Assembly (NCBI RefSeq): GCF_002836775.1
Contig: NZ_PJAQ01000012.1
Coordinates: 1 to 64,000 of the forward strand
Length of the DNA stretch: 64,000 nucleotides
Source: Colwellia sp. 12G3
Lineage (GTDB): Bacteria > Pseudomonadota > Gammaproteobacteria > Enterobacterales > Alteromonadaceae
Direction of reading: 5' to 3'
In this document: positions 16,071 to 63,426 of the stretch, piece after piece
Layout: the number at the start of each line of letters is the position of its first letter
Numbering within the stretch: position 1 is the first letter of the stretch
Made by a program: the position numbers and the translations under genes
The notes under the pieces: model-generated
What the model was told of the DNA's origin: nothing
The model's database searches: none
What the model saw: only the letters and a program-made list of their open reading frames with translations

Positions 16071-16268
16071 GTTTGATAGTGTTACAAGAAACCTACTATA
16101 GAATATATTAAGCGGCTTGCCCTTAATAATGTATATTTTTTTTGTATTATTATGTTTAAAATATCTACGAGGATAAATTTCTACTCTTTTTTAGGTAAAC
16201 CCGCTCATGTTAGTTTTATCTATATTTATAAGTTTCTGTTAAAGAAACATCTGAAAGGTGACGTTTTT

Positions 16269-17393
16269 ATGAAAAAATTGATAGCTACTACGTTAGCTAA
16301 AGCTTTTATTATCCTCGTTTCTCTAGCGCTACCAATAATTGGTTATGCTACGGAAGATAAGAGTAAGTGGCAGAAACCAACCCCCGTTTTTAAGCAAGAT
16401 TTTGACTGGGTAAAGCTAAAGTCTGATGAATGGCTCAAAGGCGATATCGTATCTATGTATGATGAGAAGCTAGAGTTCGAAAGTGATGAACTGGATATGC
16501 AAACAATCGATTTGGAGGATGTTGCTGAGTTACGTAGTAAACAATGGCAAAGTATTCGAATGTTTGATGGAACCATTGCTGAAGGTTATTTAGTAATAAA
16601 AGAGGGGCAATTATCTTTAGTCAAACATGGTGTGACCACCCACTTCGAATTGAGTCAACTTTTATCTATTGCATCATCGGGAAAAAATGAACGAGATTTA
16701 TGGGACGGCTACTTTAATATAGGTATTAATTTACGTGAAGGCAATACAGTACAATTCGATTATACATTGTCGGCTGGCGTGCAGCGACGAAGCTCGAGTA
16801 GTCGATTTAAAGCCGATTATACAGCAGATTATAGTCGCTATGAAGACCAAGACACTGAAGAAATGAAAGTTACCGCCGACAGTGAGCGATTAACATCCTC
16901 TTATGATTGGTTTTTCAATCCTAAAATTTACTTTAGAGCTGCAGATTTAGAATACATAACTGATGAATTTTTGAACCTCGATTACCGTATCCATTACGGT
17001 ATCGCATTAGGCTATCATATTATCGATACTGGTCGAACTAGTTGGGATGTAAATCTCGGTCCAAGCTATCAAATGAGTAAATTTATTGATGTTCAAGAAA
17101 ATGAAAGTGACAATGAAAACTCTGTGGGGCTAACACTAGGAACAGATTTTACCTTTGAAGTTACGGGTGATATTGACTATGATGCTTCATATAATGTGCA
17201 GGTAATTGATGAAGCATCAGGTGGTAATATTCACCACTTTCAAACAGGCTTAGAAATTGAGCTTACCAATGACTTCGATCTTGATATGACCTTGTATGCC
17301 GATCGCACTGAAAACCCAAAAGCTGATAGTGGGGGTAATATTCCAGAGAAAAATGATTATCGTTTAGTCGTCAGTTTTGGCTATGACTTTTAA
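16269..17393 (+). CDS. DUF481 outer membrane protein, first of tandem pair
   Basis: A 374-aa exported protein. A signal peptide (residues 1-27, ending GYATEDK) leads into a region (about 35-140) with two SH3/Sm-like beta motifs: WLKGDIVSMYDEKLEFESDE and FDGTIAEGYLVIKEGQLSLV. A DUF481 beta-barrel with alternating aromatic strands follows and ends in a terminal phenylalanine (VVSFGYDF), as expected for a Bam substrate. The start is the ATG before KKLIATTL, with AAAGGTGA upstream. The longer frame to 16152 has no ribosome site. Function unknown; YdiY-like salt-induced OMPs are the nearest relatives. Confidence 0.8.
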   Translation: MKKLIATTLAKAFIILVSLALPIIGYATEDKSKWQKPTPVFKQDFDWVKLKSDEWLKGDIVSMYDEKLEFESDELDMQTIDLEDVAELRSKQWQSIRMFDGTIAEGYLVIKEGQLSLVKHGVTTHFELSQLLSIASSGKNERDLWDGYFNIGINLREGNTVQFDYTLSAGVQRRSSSSRFKADYTADYSRYEDQDTEEMKVTADSERLTSSYDWFFNPKIYFRAADLEYITDEFLNLDYRIHYGIALGYHIIDTGRTSWDVNLGPSYQMSKFIDVQENESDNENSVGLTLGTDFTFEVTGDIDYDASYNVQVIDEASGGNIHHFQTGLEIELTNDFDLDMTLYADRTENPKADSGGNIPEKNDYRLVVSFGYDF

Positions 17394-17480
17394 TTAATGC
17401 GGGTTAGTTTTATAGTTTGTATTTCATCTAGTACAAGCATTTTTTATTGTTAGTTTTGTTTGAGTAGCCACGATCATATT

Positions 17481-18575
17481 GTGAATAAGTATTTATTATT
17501 AATTATCGCCTCAATTAGCTTTTCGAGCTACGGGCAGCAAAGCTTGGAGCAGACTGATATCTGGAGTCCTCCACTCCCTGTTTTTTCACAGCAATTTGAT
17601 TGGCTGAAATTACGATCAGGGGAATGGCTCAAAGGTGATATTGTTTCCATGTATGACGACGAGTTGGAATTTGAAAGCGAAGAATTTAATACCATTATTT
17701 TTGATTGGGAAAATGTAACAGAGTTGCGTAGCCGTTTTGACCAACAAATACGTTTTGCTAATGGAGAAGTAAAACAAGGATTCCTTATTGTTAAAGACAA
17801 TCACCTAGTTTTAATCAGTGGTGGCACAGAGCAACATTATCCCTTATCAGAACTTTTATCGATAACTTCTTCTTCTGATGACAGAAAAGAACTATGGGAT
17901 GGTAAAGTTAGCTTAGGTATTGATGTTAATAAAGGGAACGTAAATCAATTAGATTATTTGGCTAGTGCAAAAGTTCAACGAAGAACGCCTTTTACTCGCT
18001 TTAGAATCGACTTTAGTTATTACTATAGTAAGTCTACTGCCGATGAAAATGAGCAAGTTATTACCGATACTAGTCGTTTAACTTCCAACCTGGATTGGTT
18101 CTATAGCAGTAAAGTCTTTTTTCGAGTATTTGACTATGAACACTTCTCTGATCTTCAGCAAAATATTAAGTACAGAGATACTCTAGGACTCAGTTTAGGT
18201 TATCACTTAATGCAAAATAAACGCCTGCAATGGGATGTAACCCTCGGGCCTAGTTATCAACAAACCGTGTATTACAATACGACTGACGAAAGTGACCAAA
18301 GTAGTGGTGTTGTCGCCTTAGGTACTTTATTTGATTATAGTATTTCAAGTCGCATAGATTATATTTTTGATTATCAATTACAATTTGTTGAAGAAAACTC
18401 AGGTAAACGCAATTCACATTTAAAAACAGGATTAGAATTTGAATTTATAGACGATTTTGAGTTAGATTTTACATTTTATATAGACCGAGTGGCTAAGCCT
18501 GTTGCTTCAGCGGATTCGGTACCACCAGAATCGAATGATTATAGATTAATACTTAGTATCGGATATGACTTCTAG
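17481..18575 (+). CDS. DUF481 outer membrane protein, second of tandem pair
   Basis: A close paralogue of the preceding gene over its whole length. It shares the N-terminal blocks WLKGDIVSMYDDELEFESEE and LWDGKVSLGIDVNKGN, the barrel repeats and the terminal GYDF. I choose the GTG start before NKYLLLIIASISFSSYG, which gives a clean signal peptide. A TTG seven codons earlier is possible, and neither has a strong SD. The 87-bp gap with no clear terminator suggests co-transcription. Tandem duplication followed by divergence explains the pair. Confidence 0.78.
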   Translation: MNKYLLLIIASISFSSYGQQSLEQTDIWSPPLPVFSQQFDWLKLRSGEWLKGDIVSMYDDELEFESEEFNTIIFDWENVTELRSRFDQQIRFANGEVKQGFLIVKDNHLVLISGGTEQHYPLSELLSITSSSDDRKELWDGKVSLGIDVNKGNVNQLDYLASAKVQRRTPFTRFRIDFSYYYSKSTADENEQVITDTSRLTSNLDWFYSSKVFFRVFDYEHFSDLQQNIKYRDTLGLSLGYHLMQNKRLQWDVTLGPSYQQTVYYNTTDESDQSSGVVALGTLFDYSISSRIDYIFDYQLQFVEENSGKRNSHLKTGLEFEFIDDFELDFTFYIDRVAKPVASADSVPPESNDYRLILSIGYDF

Positions 18576-22586: not shown

Positions 22587-23051
22587 CTACTCATCAAAAC
22601 TGAATTCAATATAAGCTCGGCCTAATTCACTTTTAAGTGGAATAATAACGATAGGTCCTTTAGCTTTATGATGAATAGAATGGTTTTTTCCAGAAACAAC
22701 AATAGGGGTAGCCATATCAAATTCAATGCCTTTTTCACTGAGCATACGCTTTGCGCCGCCAGTAACCATATTTGTTATTTCACCGACTAAATCAATAATT
22801 TCTTCATTAACTACATCAGGTGCTTCACCGACCATCTTTTTCATGGTGGCTAATGCTAAGCCTCCTTCAAAAGTTATTGATAATGAACCCTTTGCTTGAT
22901 CACTGACCATACCAATTAGACCTGAAACATCCCCTAAGGCGACTTCATTTTTTTTAAGTCGCGGTTTTTCTGGAATTAATTCCATTTGAGCCATCGTTGA
23001 CATGACATTAAGCATTGAAGATAAAAATGGATTGATAAACTCTACATTCAT
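22587..23051 (-). CDS. cheX: CheX-like chemotaxis phosphatase domain protein
   Basis: A 154-aa stand-alone CheC/CheX-fold protein. The catalytic ExxN pair, E91 and N94, is in DLVGEITNMVTGGAKRML, and the single motif fits CheX rather than CheC. The family dephosphorylates CheY-type receivers. No chemotaxis genes are adjacent. It is an orphan copy, as in other Alteromonadales and Vibrios, so its receiver partner is unknown. Confidence 0.88.
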   Translation of the reverse strand: MNVEFINPFLSSMLNVMSTMAQMELIPEKPRLKKNEVALGDVSGLIGMVSDQAKGSLSITFEGGLALATMKKMVGEAPDVVNEEIIDLVGEITNMVTGGAKRMLSEKGIEFDMATPIVVSGKNHSIHHKAKGPIVIIPLKSELGRAYIEFSFDE

Positions 23052-28122: not shown

Positions 28123-29514
28123 ATGAATCATCATAAAAATAAGGAGTCGTTTTTAAGAGTGAATAAAGCTAAACTCAGCCAAGATGAAAACTTGTCTTTT
28201 AAAGTTAGTCACCGATTATTACCGCAAGCCTATCAGCGTATTGATTTGTACTTCTCACTGCCGGTTGAAATGGGTATAAACCCCAGCACCCTAAACGAAG
28301 AAGAATTTTTCTACTCGAATATTAAAAACCATAGCGCCTATTACGCTGCTCAATTACACTTGCCATTAGTGAGAAGTCGCTTTATTAGCCAAAATAAAGG
28401 TGGACAAAGTGACTATCGATTAAACCTTAACTTATATTCCTATCAGGTTAAGAAGGCACTCGATGCAGATATCAAACAAACATTAAAATTAAAAGCGGCA
28501 GAAGAATTTTATCCTGCGGCGATTGAATTAGCAGAACAAACTATCACGCTGACCAAAAAATTAAGGCGATATACCCCTTCAGATAAAAAACTGAATTCAT
28601 TTTTTGAGAATGCAGATAACTATTTAAGTTGGCACATAGAGCAGTCTTTCTTAAAATTACTGACCAAGGGCCCGAAAAGTGCGGAATTTACCGCGGAAAG
28701 AGAGCTGCTGTTAAATTTATGTCGAAGTGAAAATGAATATCGCATTGACAATAAATATAACTCACAAGTTACTCTTGATGATGCTAATCGTATCACTAAT
28801 AAAATGCGCCTTTTACAACGTTTAATAGAATATGGAGTGGTTTTTCAACGGAAAACTCGCTACTTAAATGTTAATTTGAAACGTTTTGTCCGCGGCATTG
28901 TTACTGCCGTCATCATGGCTTTTGTCATGCTATTAGTATTAAATGCACGCACTAACTTTACCGAAGTCACGGTTGCTCTAGTGGCTTTTTTAGGGCTTAT
29001 TTATGGACTACGAGAAACCTTTAAAGAAGACTTAACCAGCTTGATATGGCGTAAAATTCAAAAAGGTCGACCAAAATGGCAAAATCTCTTTACTCATAGC
29101 GTCACTAAAAAACGTATTTTGAGTCAAATACTTTGGTTGGAATATATAAAAAACAAAGACTTACCGGAAAAAGTTAATGATATGTTTCAGCTGCGCGGAC
29201 AGCAAAATAAACAGGATGCCCAATTATTGCATTTTCGCTGCGATAATAAGGTAATGGCTAAAGAGTTCTTACCTGGCTATGATGAAATTCAGCAACAAAC
29301 ATTTTTTAATTTAACGCCCTTTGTTCGTTTTCTGAAAAAAGGGGCGGGTCGACTATATAGCTTAGAAGGGCAAAAAATATCAAATCAAGCGGTAGAACGA
29401 CGTTATCAAATTAACCTTATTTTACGCCATAGCTGTCAGGGTGAAGAATCTTTACAGCGTTTTAAAATTACTTTAAATCGCTCAGAAATAGTCAATATCG
29501 AACCAATAAAATAG
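28123..29514 (+). CDS. Conserved membrane protein of unknown function
   Basis: A 463-aa protein I do not recognise. Residues 1-255 are soluble and charged (FKVSHRLLPQAYQRIDLYFS near the start). Two adjacent hydrophobic helices at about 262-297 (GIVTAVIMAFVMLLVLNA, VTVALVAFLGLIYGL) form a hairpin. A basic 165-residue C-terminal domain follows (FKEDLTSLIWRKIQKGRPKW). Both large domains should face the cytoplasm. The start is uncertain: the ATG has no clear SD, and AAGGAG lies 12 bases before an in-frame GTG at codon 13. Confidence 0.7.
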   Translation: MNHHKNKESFLRVNKAKLSQDENLSFKVSHRLLPQAYQRIDLYFSLPVEMGINPSTLNEEEFFYSNIKNHSAYYAAQLHLPLVRSRFISQNKGGQSDYRLNLNLYSYQVKKALDADIKQTLKLKAAEEFYPAAIELAEQTITLTKKLRRYTPSDKKLNSFFENADNYLSWHIEQSFLKLLTKGPKSAEFTAERELLLNLCRSENEYRIDNKYNSQVTLDDANRITNKMRLLQRLIEYGVVFQRKTRYLNVNLKRFVRGIVTAVIMAFVMLLVLNARTNFTEVTVALVAFLGLIYGLRETFKEDLTSLIWRKIQKGRPKWQNLFTHSVTKKRILSQILWLEYIKNKDLPEKVNDMFQLRGQQNKQDAQLLHFRCDNKVMAKEFLPGYDEIQQQTFFNLTPFVRFLKKGAGRLYSLEGQKISNQAVERRYQINLILRHSCQGEESLQRFKITLNRSEIVNIEPIK

Positions 29515-34662: not shown

Positions 34663-35421
34663 ATGAATAAACTATCCATAATATCTACAGCCCTCGCTGT
34701 TTCATTTTCTGTAAGTGTAAGTGCGAGTGACTGGGCGTTTCAGTTTGAGCCTTACCTGATGGCAACTCAAATACAAGGTAATGCCAGCATAGGTCGAGTG
34801 GTAGGTGCCCCTGTTGATGTTGATTTCAGCACCATTCTAGATAATTTAGATATGGCTGCTATGTTACATTTCGAAGCTCACCATAAAGCCGGGTGGGGTG
34901 TTGTTATGGATTACGGCTTTATGGACTTAAGTAACAAAGTCACTAATAATCGTGATGGCATGGTACATATTGCTCTGAGACAAGGAGTATTGGAATCACT
35001 TGGCTTATATCGAATGCAGTATGGGGGATATACGGTAGATTATTTTGCGGGTGTACGTTGGTGGGATAATGATATCAGTTTAACTATGGATGCTAATATT
35101 ACACCGGATAGAAGTACGAACGTTAGCGTTAAGGAAGATTGGCTTGATGTCGTTGTAGGTATGAGAGTTACCGGTAAAATTAACAATAGCTGGAACTATA
35201 TTGCCAGGGCTGATCTTGGTGGTTTTGGTTTGTCTGCGGACTTTACTTCTACTGTTGAAGCGGGTATTACTTACGAAATAAGTAAACTAATGACTTTAGA
35301 TATGAAGTATAAAGCCACATGGGTTGATTATGAAAATGTAAATAACATGGCAACAATAGGGTATTTTCAATATGACACTACCACTCATGGTCCAATTATT
35401 GGACTAACTTTTAATTTTTAA
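34663..35421 (+). CDS. Small outer membrane beta-barrel protein
   Basis: 252 aa: signal peptide to about residue 22 (SVSVSASDWAF), then alternating hydrophobic strands (WAFQFEPYLMATQIQG, VDYFAGVRWWDND, TVEAGITYEISKLMTLDMKY) ending in the barrel signature FNF. It resembles porin-like proteins of unknown function near DUF4136 genes. An AAAGGA site precedes the ATG. It follows the lipoprotein gene by 74 bp on the same strand and is probably co-expressed. Confidence 0.72.
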   Translation: MNKLSIISTALAVSFSVSVSASDWAFQFEPYLMATQIQGNASIGRVVGAPVDVDFSTILDNLDMAAMLHFEAHHKAGWGVVMDYGFMDLSNKVTNNRDGMVHIALRQGVLESLGLYRMQYGGYTVDYFAGVRWWDNDISLTMDANITPDRSTNVSVKEDWLDVVVGMRVTGKINNSWNYIARADLGGFGLSADFTSTVEAGITYEISKLMTLDMKYKATWVDYENVNNMATIGYFQYDTTTHGPIIGLTFNF

Positions 35422-41478: not shown

Positions 41479-41724
41479 CTATATAAATTGAAGTTGCTCT
41501 TCCATTCCAGCTTGAAATTGATCACTAGGCAATATATTGATACTTTCATGAAGTTCAGAATAAACCAAGACTGCATTACCTTGTTCAAGTTGTTTTTTTA
41601 CTTGTGCAATTTTAGCCTCTTTACTCACCTCTTCAGCGCCATATTCAGTCCCTTCACGTAAAATAAAGTCTTCAATAATCGCGGTTAATGTTTCATGTGA
41701 TAGTTGTTCTAAAGGGATAATCAT
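41479..41724 (-). CDS. yheU: YheU family protein (UPF0270)
   Basis: 81 aa. LREGTEYG, QLEQGNAVLVYSELHESINI and the N-terminal IIPLEQLSHETL align with E. coli YheU, a small conserved protein of unknown function. I start at the ATG of MIIPLEQL to match the family; an ATG six codons earlier is equally weak in SD. It belongs to the yheU/yheS/yheV neighbourhood. Confidence 0.88.
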   Translation of the reverse strand: MIIPLEQLSHETLTAIIEDFILREGTEYGAEEVSKEAKIAQVKKQLEQGNAVLVYSELHESINILPSDQFQAGMEEQLQFI

Positions 41725-41786
41725 AAAGGGATCTTCAGGCATTTAAATAATGAACAGCCATTGTAACGTTGAATGACATTATTACT

Positions 41787-42473
41787 CTAAACTAATTTAT
41801 TAAAGAGTAAGCCTTTACGGTCTTCATCATTCTTTTTAGTGATGATAGCGCTCTGTAAAAGCACTTCATTTTGTTCTTGTTTGCTTGAGGCTATAGCATA
41901 GTCAGTATCTTCAATACGTGATCGAGAAGCACTAACATTGATAACACTGGTTTGGTAGGTGGCTACTTGACTAGCAAGGGCATTGGATTCTGCCCCTAAA
42001 GCACTGGCACTATCATTGACTAACGTTGAGGTATCTTGAAGTATTGCTTGAGTAGCGCTTGGGTCACTAGCACCTAGACCACTAATAAAGTTGTCTTGTC
42101 CGAGAACATCACTAGCAAGAGTATTTATTTGTTCGGTAATTTGGTCTAATTCACCTTGAATGACCTCATTACTATAGAGGGGATTACCTGATTGAATTGA
42201 TAGTTCTTGAGCCCGCAATAAACCTTCATTAATTGCGGATAAAGCACCCGCTTCAACATTATTGGTATTCGCTTGGTCTTGTGCATTAAAGCTGAGTTGT
42301 TGATTTTGATTAATGTCACTGGTAAGTCGATTCGAAATCTGTAGGCCTGCGGCATCATCTGCGGCTTTATTGATACGTTTTCCAGACGCGAGTTTTTCAG
42401 CTTGTTCTTCACGTTGATGACTGAGCTTATCAATAAAGCTTAAATTGGCTGAGGGCTGATTTATCGACAACAT
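41787..42473 (-). CDS. Short flagellin-like protein
   Basis: 228 aa. Residues 1-130 match the flagellin N-terminal D0/D1 domain (LASGKRINKAADDAAGLQIS, NRLTSDINQNQQLS). Residues about 165-228 match the C-terminal D1/D0 domain (SASRSRIEDTDYAIASSKQE). The variable central D2/D3 part is missing. The last residues (GLLFNKLV) deviate from the usual ending. No other flagellar gene is in the window. It could be a minor filament protein, a junction component or a decaying copy. Confidence 0.85.
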   Translation of the reverse strand: MLSINQPSANLSFIDKLSHQREEQAEKLASGKRINKAADDAAGLQISNRLTSDINQNQQLSFNAQDQANTNNVEAGALSAINEGLLRAQELSIQSGNPLYSNEVIQGELDQITEQINTLASDVLGQDNFISGLGASDPSATQAILQDTSTLVNDSASALGAESNALASQVATYQTSVINVSASRSRIEDTDYAIASSKQEQNEVLLQSAIITKKNDEDRKGLLFNKLV

Positions 42474-42583
42474 AACGAGACCTTAACAGACTAAATTGGA
42501 ATATTACTATTAGAAGTATAGCAATATATCACTATTTAGCCGTTATAAGGAGAGTACAATTTAGTCGATATAAGCGTACTTAT

Positions 42584-42798: not shown

Positions 42799-43539
42799 TC
42801 AATAGAAGCGCTGCTTTTCTGCCATTTTTGCTTTGTTCTCTTGTTGATCTATAATTTTTTGATAGATTTTATTGGCCTTTTCTGTATTTTCTTCAATCAT
42901 TCTCTGAGACAAGTCACGGGCGTCCATTGTCAGACTCTTTTCTGCGTTGGCATAACCATTCCATGCAGCAATGGTATTCCATATATAAGACAAGTCTGTG
43001 CTTTTCTCTACCCCTTTACCTTCACTATACAGTAACGCTAAATTAAATTGAGCAAGTGCATAGTTTTGATTTGCCGCATTTTTGTACCAGCGTGAAGCTT
43101 TAAAGTCATCTTGCTTTACACCTGTGCCGTTTGCGTACATCACTGCTAAATTAAATTGTGCACTGGCTAAATCTTTGTTCGCCGCTTTATGGGTCAGGTC
43201 AAACGCTTTGTTTAGGTCTTGTTTTACTAACTTACCTTCTGAGTAAATTAAGGCCAGTTCAAATTGTGCATCGGGATAACTTTGATCAGCGGCAAGTTTA
43301 AATAACTCGAATGCTTTCATCCCATCCTTACTTACCGAATAACCGTGCTGATAGATCAAAGCCATTTGATACTGAGCAGGAGCGTAACCTTCAATCACTA
43401 GTGGGCGAAATTGCTCAATGGCTGCTTTGAATTCTCCTCTATTTAATTCATAAATCCCCTGTTCAAGGTCAGTACCTTGGCTCAATACTGAGAAACTGCT
43501 TAGCAGTGCTAGGGTAAACAGTAATATTTTAGTAGGCAT
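42799..43539 (-). CDS. Exported Sel1-repeat protein
   Basis: 246 aa with a signal peptide (MPTKILLFTLALLSSFSVLS) and four to five Sel1-like repeats of 36 residues (APAQYQMALIYQHGYSVSKD, ASAQFNLAVMYANGTGVKQD, ALAQFNLALLYSEGKGVEKS). A charged helix ends the protein (ENKAMAEKQRF region). Such alpha-solenoid repeats bind proteins in the periplasm. The target is unknown. Located between the DUF3149 gene and yheS on the same strand. Confidence 0.85.
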   Translation of the reverse strand: MPTKILLFTLALLSSFSVLSQGTDLEQGIYELNRGEFKAAIEQFRPLVIEGYAPAQYQMALIYQHGYSVSKDGMKAFELFKLAADQSYPDAQFELALIYSEGKLVKQDLNKAFDLTHKAANKDLASAQFNLAVMYANGTGVKQDDFKASRWYKNAANQNYALAQFNLALLYSEGKGVEKSTDLSYIWNTIAAWNGYANAEKSLTMDARDLSQRMIEENTEKANKIYQKIIDQQENKAKMAEKQRFY

Positions 43540-54011: not shown

Positions 54012-54869
54012 ATGAGCGCATTAATTTCAGTAAATAACGTCAGTAAATCCTTTGGTAAAAAGAAGGTGCTTTCGTCAGTAAATTTCTCGGTGAATGCAGG
54101 ACAAATCGTTGGTTTGGTTGGGCCGAATGGCGCAGGAAAAACTACCTGCTTACAAGCTATTTTAGGTTTAACGGACTTTGAGGGCGATATTAGTGTTTTA
54201 GGCTTTCACCCTAAAAAAGATCGCGTTAGCATGCTAAACGATGTGACCTATATAGCCGACGTTGCTATTTTACCAAAATGGTTAAAAGTGTCACAAGCAT
54301 TAACTTACATGCAAGATATCCATAAAAACTTTAATATTGAAAAAGCAAAAGGGTTCTTAGCCAAAACCAACATTACCTTAACAGATAAAGTAAAGACCTT
54401 ATCAAAAGGTATGGTTGCGCAGTTACACTTAGCACTTATTTTAGCGGTTGACGCCAAAGTACTTGTGTTAGATGAGCCTACCTTAGGTTTAGATATATTA
54501 ACGCGTCGTCAATTTTATAATCACTTACTTGAAGACTTTTACACCGAAGAAAAGTGTATCGTCATTACCACTCACCAAATAGAAGAGATAGAGCACATTC
54601 TTACCGATGTTGCCTTTATTAAACAAGGTGAGATTGTCTTAGCACAAAGTACAGATGAAATTAGAGAACGCTTTAATCTTGTCGCAGTGAGCAATGAGCA
54701 AGTTGATAACGCTGATGCATTAACGCCGTTATTTAAAAATAGCATGATGGGATTAACCACGATGTTATTTGATAATCAAGATAAAGAAAAACTACAGGGT
54801 TTAGGGAAAGTGACAGTACCTAGCTTGGCCGATGTGTTTGTCGGTATCATGAATAAGGAGATGTGCTAA
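54012..54869 (+). CDS. ABC transporter ATP-binding protein
   Basis: 285 aa. Walker A GLVGPNGAGKTTCLQAILG; the signature appears as LSKGMVAQLHLALIL (LSKGM for LSGGQ). Walker B and D-loop VLVLDEPTLGLDILTRRQF, H-loop VITTHQ. The C-terminal 80 residues form the extension usual in drug, bacitracin-type or lantibiotic-type exporters. It starts three bases after the regulator stop and overlaps the permease start by one base. Confidence 0.92.
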   Translation: MSALISVNNVSKSFGKKKVLSSVNFSVNAGQIVGLVGPNGAGKTTCLQAILGLTDFEGDISVLGFHPKKDRVSMLNDVTYIADVAILPKWLKVSQALTYMQDIHKNFNIEKAKGFLAKTNITLTDKVKTLSKGMVAQLHLALILAVDAKVLVLDEPTLGLDILTRRQFYNHLLEDFYTEEKCIVITTHQIEEIEHILTDVAFIKQGEIVLAQSTDEIRERFNLVAVSNEQVDNADALTPLFKNSMMGLTTMLFDNQDKEKLQGLGKVTVPSLADVFVGIMNKEMC

Positions 54870-55777
54870 TGAATGTTTCTATAATGAAAGCCTCAGTTAA
54901 AAAAGAGCTGTGGGAATTTAGTGGCATGCTAACTTGGGTGCCAGTGGCGCTAGCGGGTATTTTCATTGTTATCCCGTTATTAATTATGCTGCTTAATGGC
55001 GTAGATATGAATGCAATACTTGAAGGGTTTAAACACTTGAGTGAAGCACAATACGGTGATGAGGTTGAGAAAGTATTTTTTGTATCAACTATTGCGTTAT
55101 TTGTGCCGTTTGTATTAGTCGGTTTTATTGTGCAATTATATTACTTTATTACCTGTTTATATGATGAGAGACGTGACCAATCAGTGATGTTTTGGCGTTC
55201 GTTACCTGTGTCAGATACCATGACTATTGCAAGCAAAGCATTAACGGGTGCGATTGTTATCCCGGCAATATTTTACTCTGCAGCGACTGTCCTATTTTTT
55301 ATAGGTTTAGTGTTAGCCTTTGTCGTTTGTGCCATTTTATCGCTAGGTTTTGATATTTCTCTGTGGGCTCTATGGTCAAGTACCAACATAGTAAGTGTTT
55401 TAGCTTCTATTTGGTTAACATTATTACCAACAGCTGTATGGTTATTACCACTGTATGCTTGGTTAATGTTGATGTCTATTTATGCGAAGAAAGCGCCATT
55501 TTTATGGGCGGTGTTACCGATCGTAGTGTTGCTAATTATTGAAGGTATTGTGGTACATTATTTACATTTATCACAGCCATTCTTTGGTCACTTTATCGCA
55601 GACTACTTTTCTATTGTCCCAGAAAACAGCACCTCGTTTGACATTGGTGATGAAAACGCTTCAATATTTTCGCCGGTACTGGCTGTACTTGCTAAGATTG
55701 ATTATCGTACCGTAATCGTCTCAGCTGCTTTATTATTCGCAACGTATTGGTTTAGAGTGAATAAACAAGAATCGTAA
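54869..55777 (+). CDS. ABC-2 type permease
   Basis: 302 aa with about six membrane segments (WVPVALAGIFIVIPLLIMLL, VPFVLVGFIVQLYYFITCLY, VIPAIFYSAATVLFFIGLVL and others). DERRDQSVMFWRSLPVSDT is the cytosolic loop typical of ABC-2 exporters with a YtrA regulator. The start is the ATG in TAATG, with AAGGAG eight bases upstream. The exported compound is unknown; a peptide antibiotic or envelope stress signal is possible by analogy. Confidence 0.9.
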   Translation: MNVSIMKASVKKELWEFSGMLTWVPVALAGIFIVIPLLIMLLNGVDMNAILEGFKHLSEAQYGDEVEKVFFVSTIALFVPFVLVGFIVQLYYFITCLYDERRDQSVMFWRSLPVSDTMTIASKALTGAIVIPAIFYSAATVLFFIGLVLAFVVCAILSLGFDISLWALWSSTNIVSVLASIWLTLLPTAVWLLPLYAWLMLMSIYAKKAPFLWAVLPIVVLLIIEGIVVHYLHLSQPFFGHFIADYFSIVPENSTSFDIGDENASIFSPVLAVLAKIDYRTVIVSAALLFATYWFRVNKQES

Positions 55778-62046: not shown

Positions 62047-63426
62047 ATGGCTACAGACTCCCCTAATCAAACACATTACACACGACAAATTCAGCACTTG
62101 TTAGCAAAAGTCTACGGGAAAAGTGCCGTTAAAGACTCTTTGTTAGATCGCGCTATCGGATATTTTGAGCAGGAAGAGTTTCGTCCGTCAGATGAAAAAA
62201 CATCCACAGATGAGTCCCAACTCGAACAAATGCAACGCACTGAACGTCACTCTTGTTTACAGTCTATTTCGCTAACGATTCTTGAATTAGCAGAAGGGGA
62301 TAGTTATGCTGAAAATAACCGAAAGTCAGCACAATTTCTGGGTACTATTCAATTATTAAGCCCTACTGAAGGCAAACGGATAGCCACGAGTAATGAGCAG
62401 AATAAATCGATTTATAAAGCCGTCTTATGTTTACGTTTACTAGACCGTTTAATTATTGATGGTCAGGTTGTTGAGCCTTATATCAATAAATTTTTAACCG
62501 AGATTACTCCTGAGCAATATATTGATTTTGCTAGTCATGATAGTGATGGGCATCAACGTTTTATTGAGCAAGTAAAAGTGCCCCTTATCATGGCTGCACT
62601 ATTACAAGATATAGGTAATTATCATCCTAAAGCGCAAACTATGCTTTGTGGTGCTGATGGTAAATTAGATGCTTTTCGTACGCTTGAAGTTAAACAACGA
62701 AAAGAGCTATTACAAATCAATTATCGTGAAACCCTGAAATTTTTAAGTGAAGGTATTGGTATGCCAACCTTTGTTGGTAACACTAAAGCTGAGCGTGATA
62801 AATTTATCGTCGATGAGCAAGGTAAATTTTCCTTTATTAAACAGCTTTTAAAAACGAGTGTAAATCCGAAGAATACTATTGGTAACATATTAAAGGTTCC
62901 GCAAATTTATACGTCAATAATCTTGTCGACCAAAGCAAGTTATAACTACAAGTTATTGCCCCAAGTCTTCCAGGTGCTAAATAAAAATGCAGAGCTTGGT
63001 GCCTGTGCAAAAAGTGTCGTTGATGCCTTATATCAAATTACTGGTATGTTCCCTCAAGGTTTCGGTGTTGTGTATATGCCATTAGGAGAATTTGGCGAGC
63101 AAACCGATTGTTATGAGTATGCTATTGTAAATAGCCTTTACCCCGATAAAGCAGAGCATCCGCATTGTCGAATGACAACACGACAACTAACGTTTATCGG
63201 CTATGGGCAAAATTTGAAAATATCAAATAACAGTAATCTTTATTTCACTCAAACGGCAAAAAAATTAGCCGCCTTGAGTAAAGAGCGTTTGAATGAAATC
63301 TTAGAGTTATTAAGTTCAAATTCTCATGAACGGAAAAAATTAGATTTATTGCCTCGCTGCTGGGATGCCAATGAGTTTTTCTCCATAAAAACCAATCAAA
63401 ACCTTTGGAATAAAGTTGTTTCATAA
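62047..63426 (+). CDS. Conserved protein of unknown function with HD-like helix
   Basis: 459 aa, no signal peptide. I do not recognise a named family. LIMAALLQDIGNYHPKAQTM resembles an HD-domain ALLHDIG..HP motif with the first histidine replaced by glutamine, so phosphohydrolase activity is doubtful. The part from about 330 on (ITGMFPQGFGVVYMPLGEFG) looks like the loop after an HD-GYP domain. Acidic N-terminal 80 residues. The ATG has no strong SD. Separated from metL by 219 bp. Confidence 0.6.
   Translation: MATDSPNQTHYTRQIQHLLAKVYGKSAVKDSLLDRAIGYFEQEEFRPSDEKTSTDESQLEQMQRTERHSCLQSISLTILELAEGDSYAENNRKSAQFLGTIQLLSPTEGKRIATSNEQNKSIYKAVLCLRLLDRLIIDGQVVEPYINKFLTEITPEQYIDFASHDSDGHQRFIEQVKVPLIMAALLQDIGNYHPKAQTMLCGADGKLDAFRTLEVKQRKELLQINYRETLKFLSEGIGMPTFVGNTKAERDKFIVDEQGKFSFIKQLLKTSVNPKNTIGNILKVPQIYTSIILSTKASYNYKLLPQVFQVLNKNAELGACAKSVVDALYQITGMFPQGFGVVYMPLGEFGEQTDCYEYAIVNSLYPDKAEHPHCRMTTRQLTFIGYGQNLKISNNSNLYFTQTAKKLAALSKERLNEILELLSSNSHERKKLDLLPRCWDANEFFSIKTNQNLWNKVVS

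Follow-up and report, generated by a model that had tools for sequence, protein, structure and literature searches.

The window analysed here is the whole stretch of 64,000 nucleotides from Colwellia sp. 12G3. It contains a gene for a 228-aa flagellin-like protein, whose features are listed in Table 1. The protein matches Flagellin_N with 60.8 bits (residues 10-122; cut-off 26.6) and Flagellin_C with 30.1 bits (residues 146-210; cut-off 23). With both Pfam halves above the curated cut-offs, it is a member of the flagellin superfamily. Pfam detected no central domain between the two halves and D2/D3 are absent, as the original prediction of a flagellin relative devoid of its surface domains had described. 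The C-terminal LLFNKLV resembles FlgL by eye. An identity as FlgL (HAP3) was rejected, as TIGR02550 gave 49.6 bits against a cut-off of 127.2.

Table 1. Position of the flagellin-like gene, its segments, its upstream element and its conserved neighbours in the window
Feature	Position	Strand	Basis
Solitary flagellin-like gene, 228 aa	41787..42473	-	ORF call, ATG start, Pfam, orthologs, dN/dS
Residues 1-27, N-D0 equivalent, remodelled	42393..42473	-	13% of flagellin-invariant residues retained
Residues 28-50, spoke segment, most flagellin-like part, overlapping the FliC secretion-signal region	42324..42392	-	87% retained
Residues 51-125, N-D1 helices	42099..42323	-	42% retained
Residues 126-145, short linker at the site of the D1 beta-hairpin and D2/D3	42039..42098	-	no strand in AF2 model
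Residues 146-193, C-D1 helix with LGA..N and SRSRIEDTD	41895..42038	-	58% retained
Residues 194-228, C-D0 equivalent, highly charged end	41790..41894	-	9% retained
Extended -10-like element TGCTATACT, -50 to -42 from ATG	42515..42523	-	similar element in 24/27 family upstreams
Sel1-repeat protein, upstream neighbour conserved within own family	42799..43539	-	domain scan, locus comparison
YheU family protein, downstream neighbour conserved within own family	41479..41742	-	domain scan, locus comparison

The gene stands apart from the flagellar genes, in agreement with its earlier description as solitary. The window has 52 non-overlapping closed ORFs of at least 110 aa, all of which were compared with Pfam or NCBIfam (shorter ORFs were considered only beside the gene), and none of the 52 is a flagellar structural gene. 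The genome, 5.06 Mb in 68 contigs, has five Flagellin_N matches. One is the 228-aa gene, on contig C14; the remaining four all lie on contig C52 together with FlhA and are, by eye, three flagellins and one FlgL-like protein. The Sel1-repeat neighbour would be a flagellar neighbour if it were the T-ring protein MotX, but this identity was rejected because its score, 35.4 bits, is far below the cut-off of 330. Contig C1 encodes a stronger match to MotX, with 234 bits itself still under this cut-off. A CheX-like protein is encoded at 22590-23051, ~19 kb from the 228-aa gene. Elsewhere in the window, two DUF481 proteins are adjacent in tandem (16152-18572, + strand), and four ORFs of 252-463 aa on the same strand show no Pfam match at E 1e-5 (28123-29511, 34663-35418, 54863-55774, and 62047-63423).

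The AF2 model (227 residues, mean pLDDT 79.6, with low confidence at the N- and C-terminal ends) is composed of four helices, 12-38, 40-94, 101-123, and 137-226. There are no strands. The D1 beta-hairpin is missing in the model, which shows the helical D0/D1 core. Flagellin filament subunits are the top structural matches (Foldseek E 1.8e-5, TMq 0.61), and the top match with VIA-align is also a flagellin filament subunit (Z 14.8, 2.9 A over 198 residues). Because helical bundles can reach Z ~13 in VIA-align by their common arrangement, this fold match adds little beyond the sequence match.

The retention of flagellin-invariant residues was calculated at 83 alignment columns without variation among 20 ordinary flagellins of seven genomes, for 46 distinct members of the family, with nine held-out flagellins as the control. 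In the order of N-D0, residues 28-50, N-D1, C-D1, and C-D0, the retention in the family was 0.13, 0.87, 0.42, 0.58, and 0.09, compared with 0.85, 1.00, 0.95, 0.82, and 0.88 in the held-out flagellins. For one FlgL, the respective values were 0.12, 0.56, 0.25, 0.41, and 0.14. The original prediction regarded the D0/D1 pieces as intact; this does not hold, since both D0 halves have lost most of these residues and, in D1, conserved arginines and glutamates have been replaced. Arginines at positions 89, 118, 156, and 165 (numbering of the window protein) are invariant in 29 flagellins and present in 0-2% of the family, and flagellin R89, R118, E75, and E80 are present in 0-9% of it. The last 24 residues contain 7.1 charged residues on average (4-12; 47 members) against 0.6 (0-3) in 32 flagellins. 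Neither Cys nor Trp was seen in any of the 47 members. Judged from sequence, D0 of the family is rewritten at both ends, and the conserved D0 core expected of FliC is absent. FlgL assembles at the hook-filament junction. As FlgL retains equally few D0 residues, the low D0 retention counts more against a FliC-like place than against any assembly.

Residues 28-50 are also structural, as the D0-D1 spoke. Because of this, and because 56% of their invariant positions are retained even in FlgL, their conservation does not prove export. They overlap the published truncated FliC secretion signal, residues 26-47, as given in PMC6337784.

A second divergent flagellin type, 265-266 aa long with a short N-D0, was observed in other genera of the family (L062:7117-7917, L063:7097-7897, and L064:7745-8542). 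Its retention is intermediate (0.33, 0.79, 0.70, 0.84, and 0.45 for the same regions). By eye, its neighbours are FlrA/B/C-like regulators (L062 and L064) or sugar-biosynthesis genes.

Orthologs of near-equal length are present in other genomes at 54-85% identity. The named relatives (18 loci) are from Colwellia, Litorilituus, Thalassotalea, Thalassomonas, one record titled Endozoicomonas, and one unclassified gammaproteobacterium. These named genera are marine. In a search of 99 relatives, full-length copies were found, besides the own genome, in 14 congeners and in members of three further genera of the same family; five genomes from outside this family hold copies at no more than 54% identity. 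A family profile built from 23 members was run on 394 genomes of the order, with at most seven candidates per genome scored. At least 29 of them are carriers (178-381 bits), spanning six families with 10, 7, 5, 4, 2, and 1 carriers (f9, f1, f16, f12, f20, and f6, respectively). The next match, at 109 bits, sits in a longer frame (341 aa) and was taken for an ordinary flagellin. A class-wide profile search (369 genomes, E 1e-35) matched just two genomes, the own one and another of its family. By these profile scores, the 228-aa flagellin relatives form a discrete family. Their length is 226-230 aa in 44 of the 47 members read; the outliers are L083 (234 aa, no start codon seen), L102 (223 aa), and L101 (205 aa). 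The monophyly of the family depends on the root position. In the tree without FlgL, all 46 distinct family sequences are in one clade (FastTree support 0.94, branch 0.51). In the tree rooted on FlgL, whose outgroup branch is very long (2.4), they are not monophyletic, and the flagellins and the 266-aa type make up a clade inside them (UFBoot 94).

The gene is real and under purifying selection. The original prediction had called for a look at conservation and the ratio of synonymous to non-synonymous changes, and the dN/dS is 0.053-0.112 wherever it is defined. The window gene was compared in eight pairs: six showed 0.075-0.112 (dS 0.8-1.7), one showed 0.103 (dS 2.1), and one was undefined. 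Eight further pairs without the window gene gave 0.053-0.111 in five and undefined values in three. Several dS values are near or past saturation; the three pairs at dS ~0.15 give 0.089-0.111.

Of the 17 loci L036-L052, 16 show the gene order ABC-F, Sel1-repeat protein, 228-aa gene, and YheU, and the gaps reach ~3 kb. The exception is L043, where the sequence stops 22 bases past the matched stretch. In three loci of other families (L054, L056, and L058, one genome each of three families), the neighbours are different, and inspection by eye revealed no flagellar filament genes within 6 kb of the gene. When ten neighbours were scanned in these three loci, a signalling gene was observed within ~0.7 kb of the gene at each: a chemoreceptor (L054:10699-12324), a response regulator followed by a CheX-like protein (L056:11166-12516), and a GGDEF/EAL protein (L058:10273-14748). 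Such genes are common.

Among the 39 genomes of the genus (the own genome and 38 congeners), the gene is full-length in 15 and broken in two (G005 and G036), and there is no full copy in 22. The Sel1 gene is kept in all of these 22. One of them (L118 in G031) has a relic of residues 14-38 only; in the flank examined, the other 21 have no trace of the gene, and YheU was not found in L128, L130, L132, and L133. The absence of an intact copy from 24 of the 38 congeners indicates that the gene is dispensable. Frameshifts in relatives had been proposed as evidence against the gene. Two broken copies and one short relic do point that way, but a full-length gene that purifying selection maintains is present in 15 of the 39 genomes; it is therefore dispensable, not unreal. 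In three Colwellia loci, decayed tandem fragments of the 3' end of the gene (residues ~181-228), mostly with interrupted frames, lie between the gene and yheU (L036:6746-6887; L039:6732-7069, two copies; L041:6795-6890).

The family is maintained in flagellated members of one order. A further flagellin-type match is found in all 29 carriers of the order, compared with 253 of 365 non-carriers. In the 99-relative set, FlhA exceeds the cut-off in 84 genomes overall and in every one of the 23 intact carriers. Such co-occurrence would fit a protein that needs the flagellar apparatus, but it is confounded by relatedness. The carrier G004 (93% complete) has FlhA and no other Flagellin_N match, most simply explained by an assembly gap. 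The gene is not lost in step with flagella: among the 24 genomes of the genus that lack an intact copy, 22 have FlhA scoring above the cut-off; of the other two, G009 has fragments only and G018 has none.

No recognisable flagellar promoter signature is present upstream of the gene. In the 300 bases upstream of 27 members, the best FliA-like sites scored 7-9 of 12, which is the level of shuffled sequences (mean ~8.2). With thresholds on consensus scores chosen after the scores were seen (FliA at least 10 or sigma-54 at least 8), none of the 27 family upstreams has a site, versus 27 of 29 ordinary flagellin controls (the two without are L111m4082 and L112p3847). The 266-aa type has neither site in the three sequences scored in the same way. 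Instead of such sites, an extended -10-like element is present 34-94 bases before ATG in 24 of the 27 family upstreams, where ~1.8 are expected from shuffles, although these 24 are related sequences and not independent events. Most Colwellia have it as TGCTATACT, and the other carriers as TGCTATAAT or a similar sequence; L046, L053, and L027 lack it. It is found in none of 32 flagellin controls. One 266-aa type carries TGCTATACT at -30, just out of range. C before TATACT is a preference of sigma-S. Scanning for sigma-70 hexamer pairs gave no site at the -10 element, and promoters were not in excess (3 observed, 5.5 expected). The putative promoter is suggested by the extended -10 and its conservation. 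An inverted repeat, TTGCTA-N10-TAGCAA, overlaps the -10 element 45-52 bases before ATG in four of the 27 upstreams (L038, L040, L042, and L044) and is a possible operator.

In our judgement, there is an even chance that the gene encodes a dedicated non-filament flagellin, which would be exported by the flagellar type III gate and have an extracellular role. It would be transcribed from a sigma-70/sigma-S-type promoter. Its N-terminal signal would bring it to the flagellar export gate, and it would pass out along the hollow flagellum or a hook that bears no filament. As its D0 presumably cannot pack in the filament core, it would not be captured under the FliD cap and would be released. Outside, it may bind to a surface, a matrix polymer, or another cell. 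Vibrio FlaE/FlaF, which bind exopolysaccharide, are a precedent for the guess that its ligand is a polysaccharide or lies on a surface. We infer export without polymerisation because the export-signal segment is kept while filament-core residues are lost. Flagellar-secreted non-filament flagellins do exist, as reported for FlaC (PMC4863622) and FlaE/FlaF (PMC6692518). Against the export reading, FliS, without which FlaC secretion is lowered in C. jejuni and which binds the C-terminal region of C. jejuni FlaA (both in PMC5466977), may not bind the rewritten C-terminus. The predicted model also still matches assembled filament subunits.

The original prediction offered a minor filament part or another secreted role, and the latter now appears to be the leading reading. 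The former is the weaker because the D0 halves and several charged positions of D1 are rewritten. A minor or junction subunit, transcribed early from a FliA-independent promoter and located at the base or tip of the filament, comparable to S. putrefaciens FlaA at the base, is unlikely. It would fit the flagellin fold with helices of near-normal length in the AF2 model, the co-occurrence with flagellar genes, the few D0 residues likewise kept by the junction protein FlgL, and the precedent of a FliA-independent proximal flagellin in Shewanella of the same order Alteromonadales (PMC6299084). However, D0 and many D1 residues that are invariant in filament flagellins are lost, there is no sigma-54-type site upstream, while S. 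putrefaciens FlaA needs RpoN and FlrA (same source), and the gene is lost or broken in 24 of the 39 genus genomes, 22 of them with FlhA.

The promoter signature of non-flagellar type and the charged C-terminus are also consistent with an intracellular role, either as a cytoplasmic flagellin mimic titrating FliS or an export component, or in an unrelated helical function. We consider this rather improbable. The C-terminal region, where FliS binds in C. jejuni FlaA, is the most altered, which is odd for a FliS sponge, and the best-kept segment is the one overlapping the export signal. That the gene is a decaying, functionless leftover of a flagellin is very improbable: the broken copies in G005 and G036, the relic in G031, the lack of any trace in other congeners, and the degraded 3'-end pieces adjoining the gene at three loci speak for decay, but purifying selection and a nearly fixed length across six families of the order speak against it.

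A broader proposal is tentative, with somewhat less than an even chance. A flagellin in one gammaproteobacterial order would have left the filament permanently, evolving independently of Campylobacterales FlaC. It would have lost the outer domains, the hairpin of D1, and the packing surface of D0 and kept the export-signal segment; its transcription would have moved to housekeeping/stationary-phase sigma factors, with the flagellum as the secretion channel for a constitutive extracellular protein. If the protein is exported, flagellins that are exported but not polymerised would have arisen more than once, and nature would have separated the export signal from the surface with which D0 assembles. 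It would also point to a flagellum-secreted protein in Colwellia and other marine bacteria of cold water. The annotation of a small protein as "flagellin" is no evidence of a filament gene.

No publication on this family was found in the literature on Colwellia and flagellin, covered by titles and abstract openings, or on related topics, mostly in openly available papers. The bacterial cell-surface flagellin of PDB 3k8v/3k8w, which we take to be a protein of Sphingomonas sp. A1, shares the flagellin fold (3k8v against the AF2 model: Z 14.2, 1.6 A over 171 residues) and is described as a cell-surface protein. Unlike the 228-aa protein, it is longer (323 residues in the solved chain) and keeps a middle region.

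Campylobacterales belong to a phylum other than that of Colwellia. According to PMC4863622, FlaC of Campylobacter jejuni and other Campylobacterales is solitary and largely lacks D2/D3, runs at ~28 kDa, is found in the secreted fraction by more than 90%, is not needed for motility, and is linked to host immune signalling; its neighbourhood varies among more distant species, and aflagellate species lack it. Compared by description only, the 228-aa gene is similarly solitary, encodes D0/D1 without D2/D3, and has different neighbours in distant carriers. It differs in that its secretion is a prediction, whereas secretion of FlaC was tested. FlaC is also from another phylum and linked to the host, whereas the named carriers of the 228-aa gene are marine genera. 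FlaC and the Vibrio FHPs are also treated in PMC8306008 and PMC12445086.

Vibrio vulnificus FlaE/FlaF, named flagellin-homologous proteins (FHPs) and also compared by description, are gammaproteobacterial flagellin relatives outside the filament, a place that the 228-aa protein would share by inference. According to PMC6692518, their exit depends on FlhA, they bind EPS, and they do not bind FlaB, FlgL, or FliD. Unlike the 228-aa gene, flaF adjoins the filament flagellin gene flaB, as judged from adjacent locus tags in the same source. The minor flagellin FlaA of Shewanella putrefaciens, a genus in the same NCBI order Alteromonadales as Colwellia, is FliA-independent, and the 228-aa gene likewise lacks a FliA-type site. 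In contrast to the 228-aa gene, S. putrefaciens FlaA is encoded next to flaB, needs RpoN and FlrA, and sits in the filament, at its base (PMC6299084).
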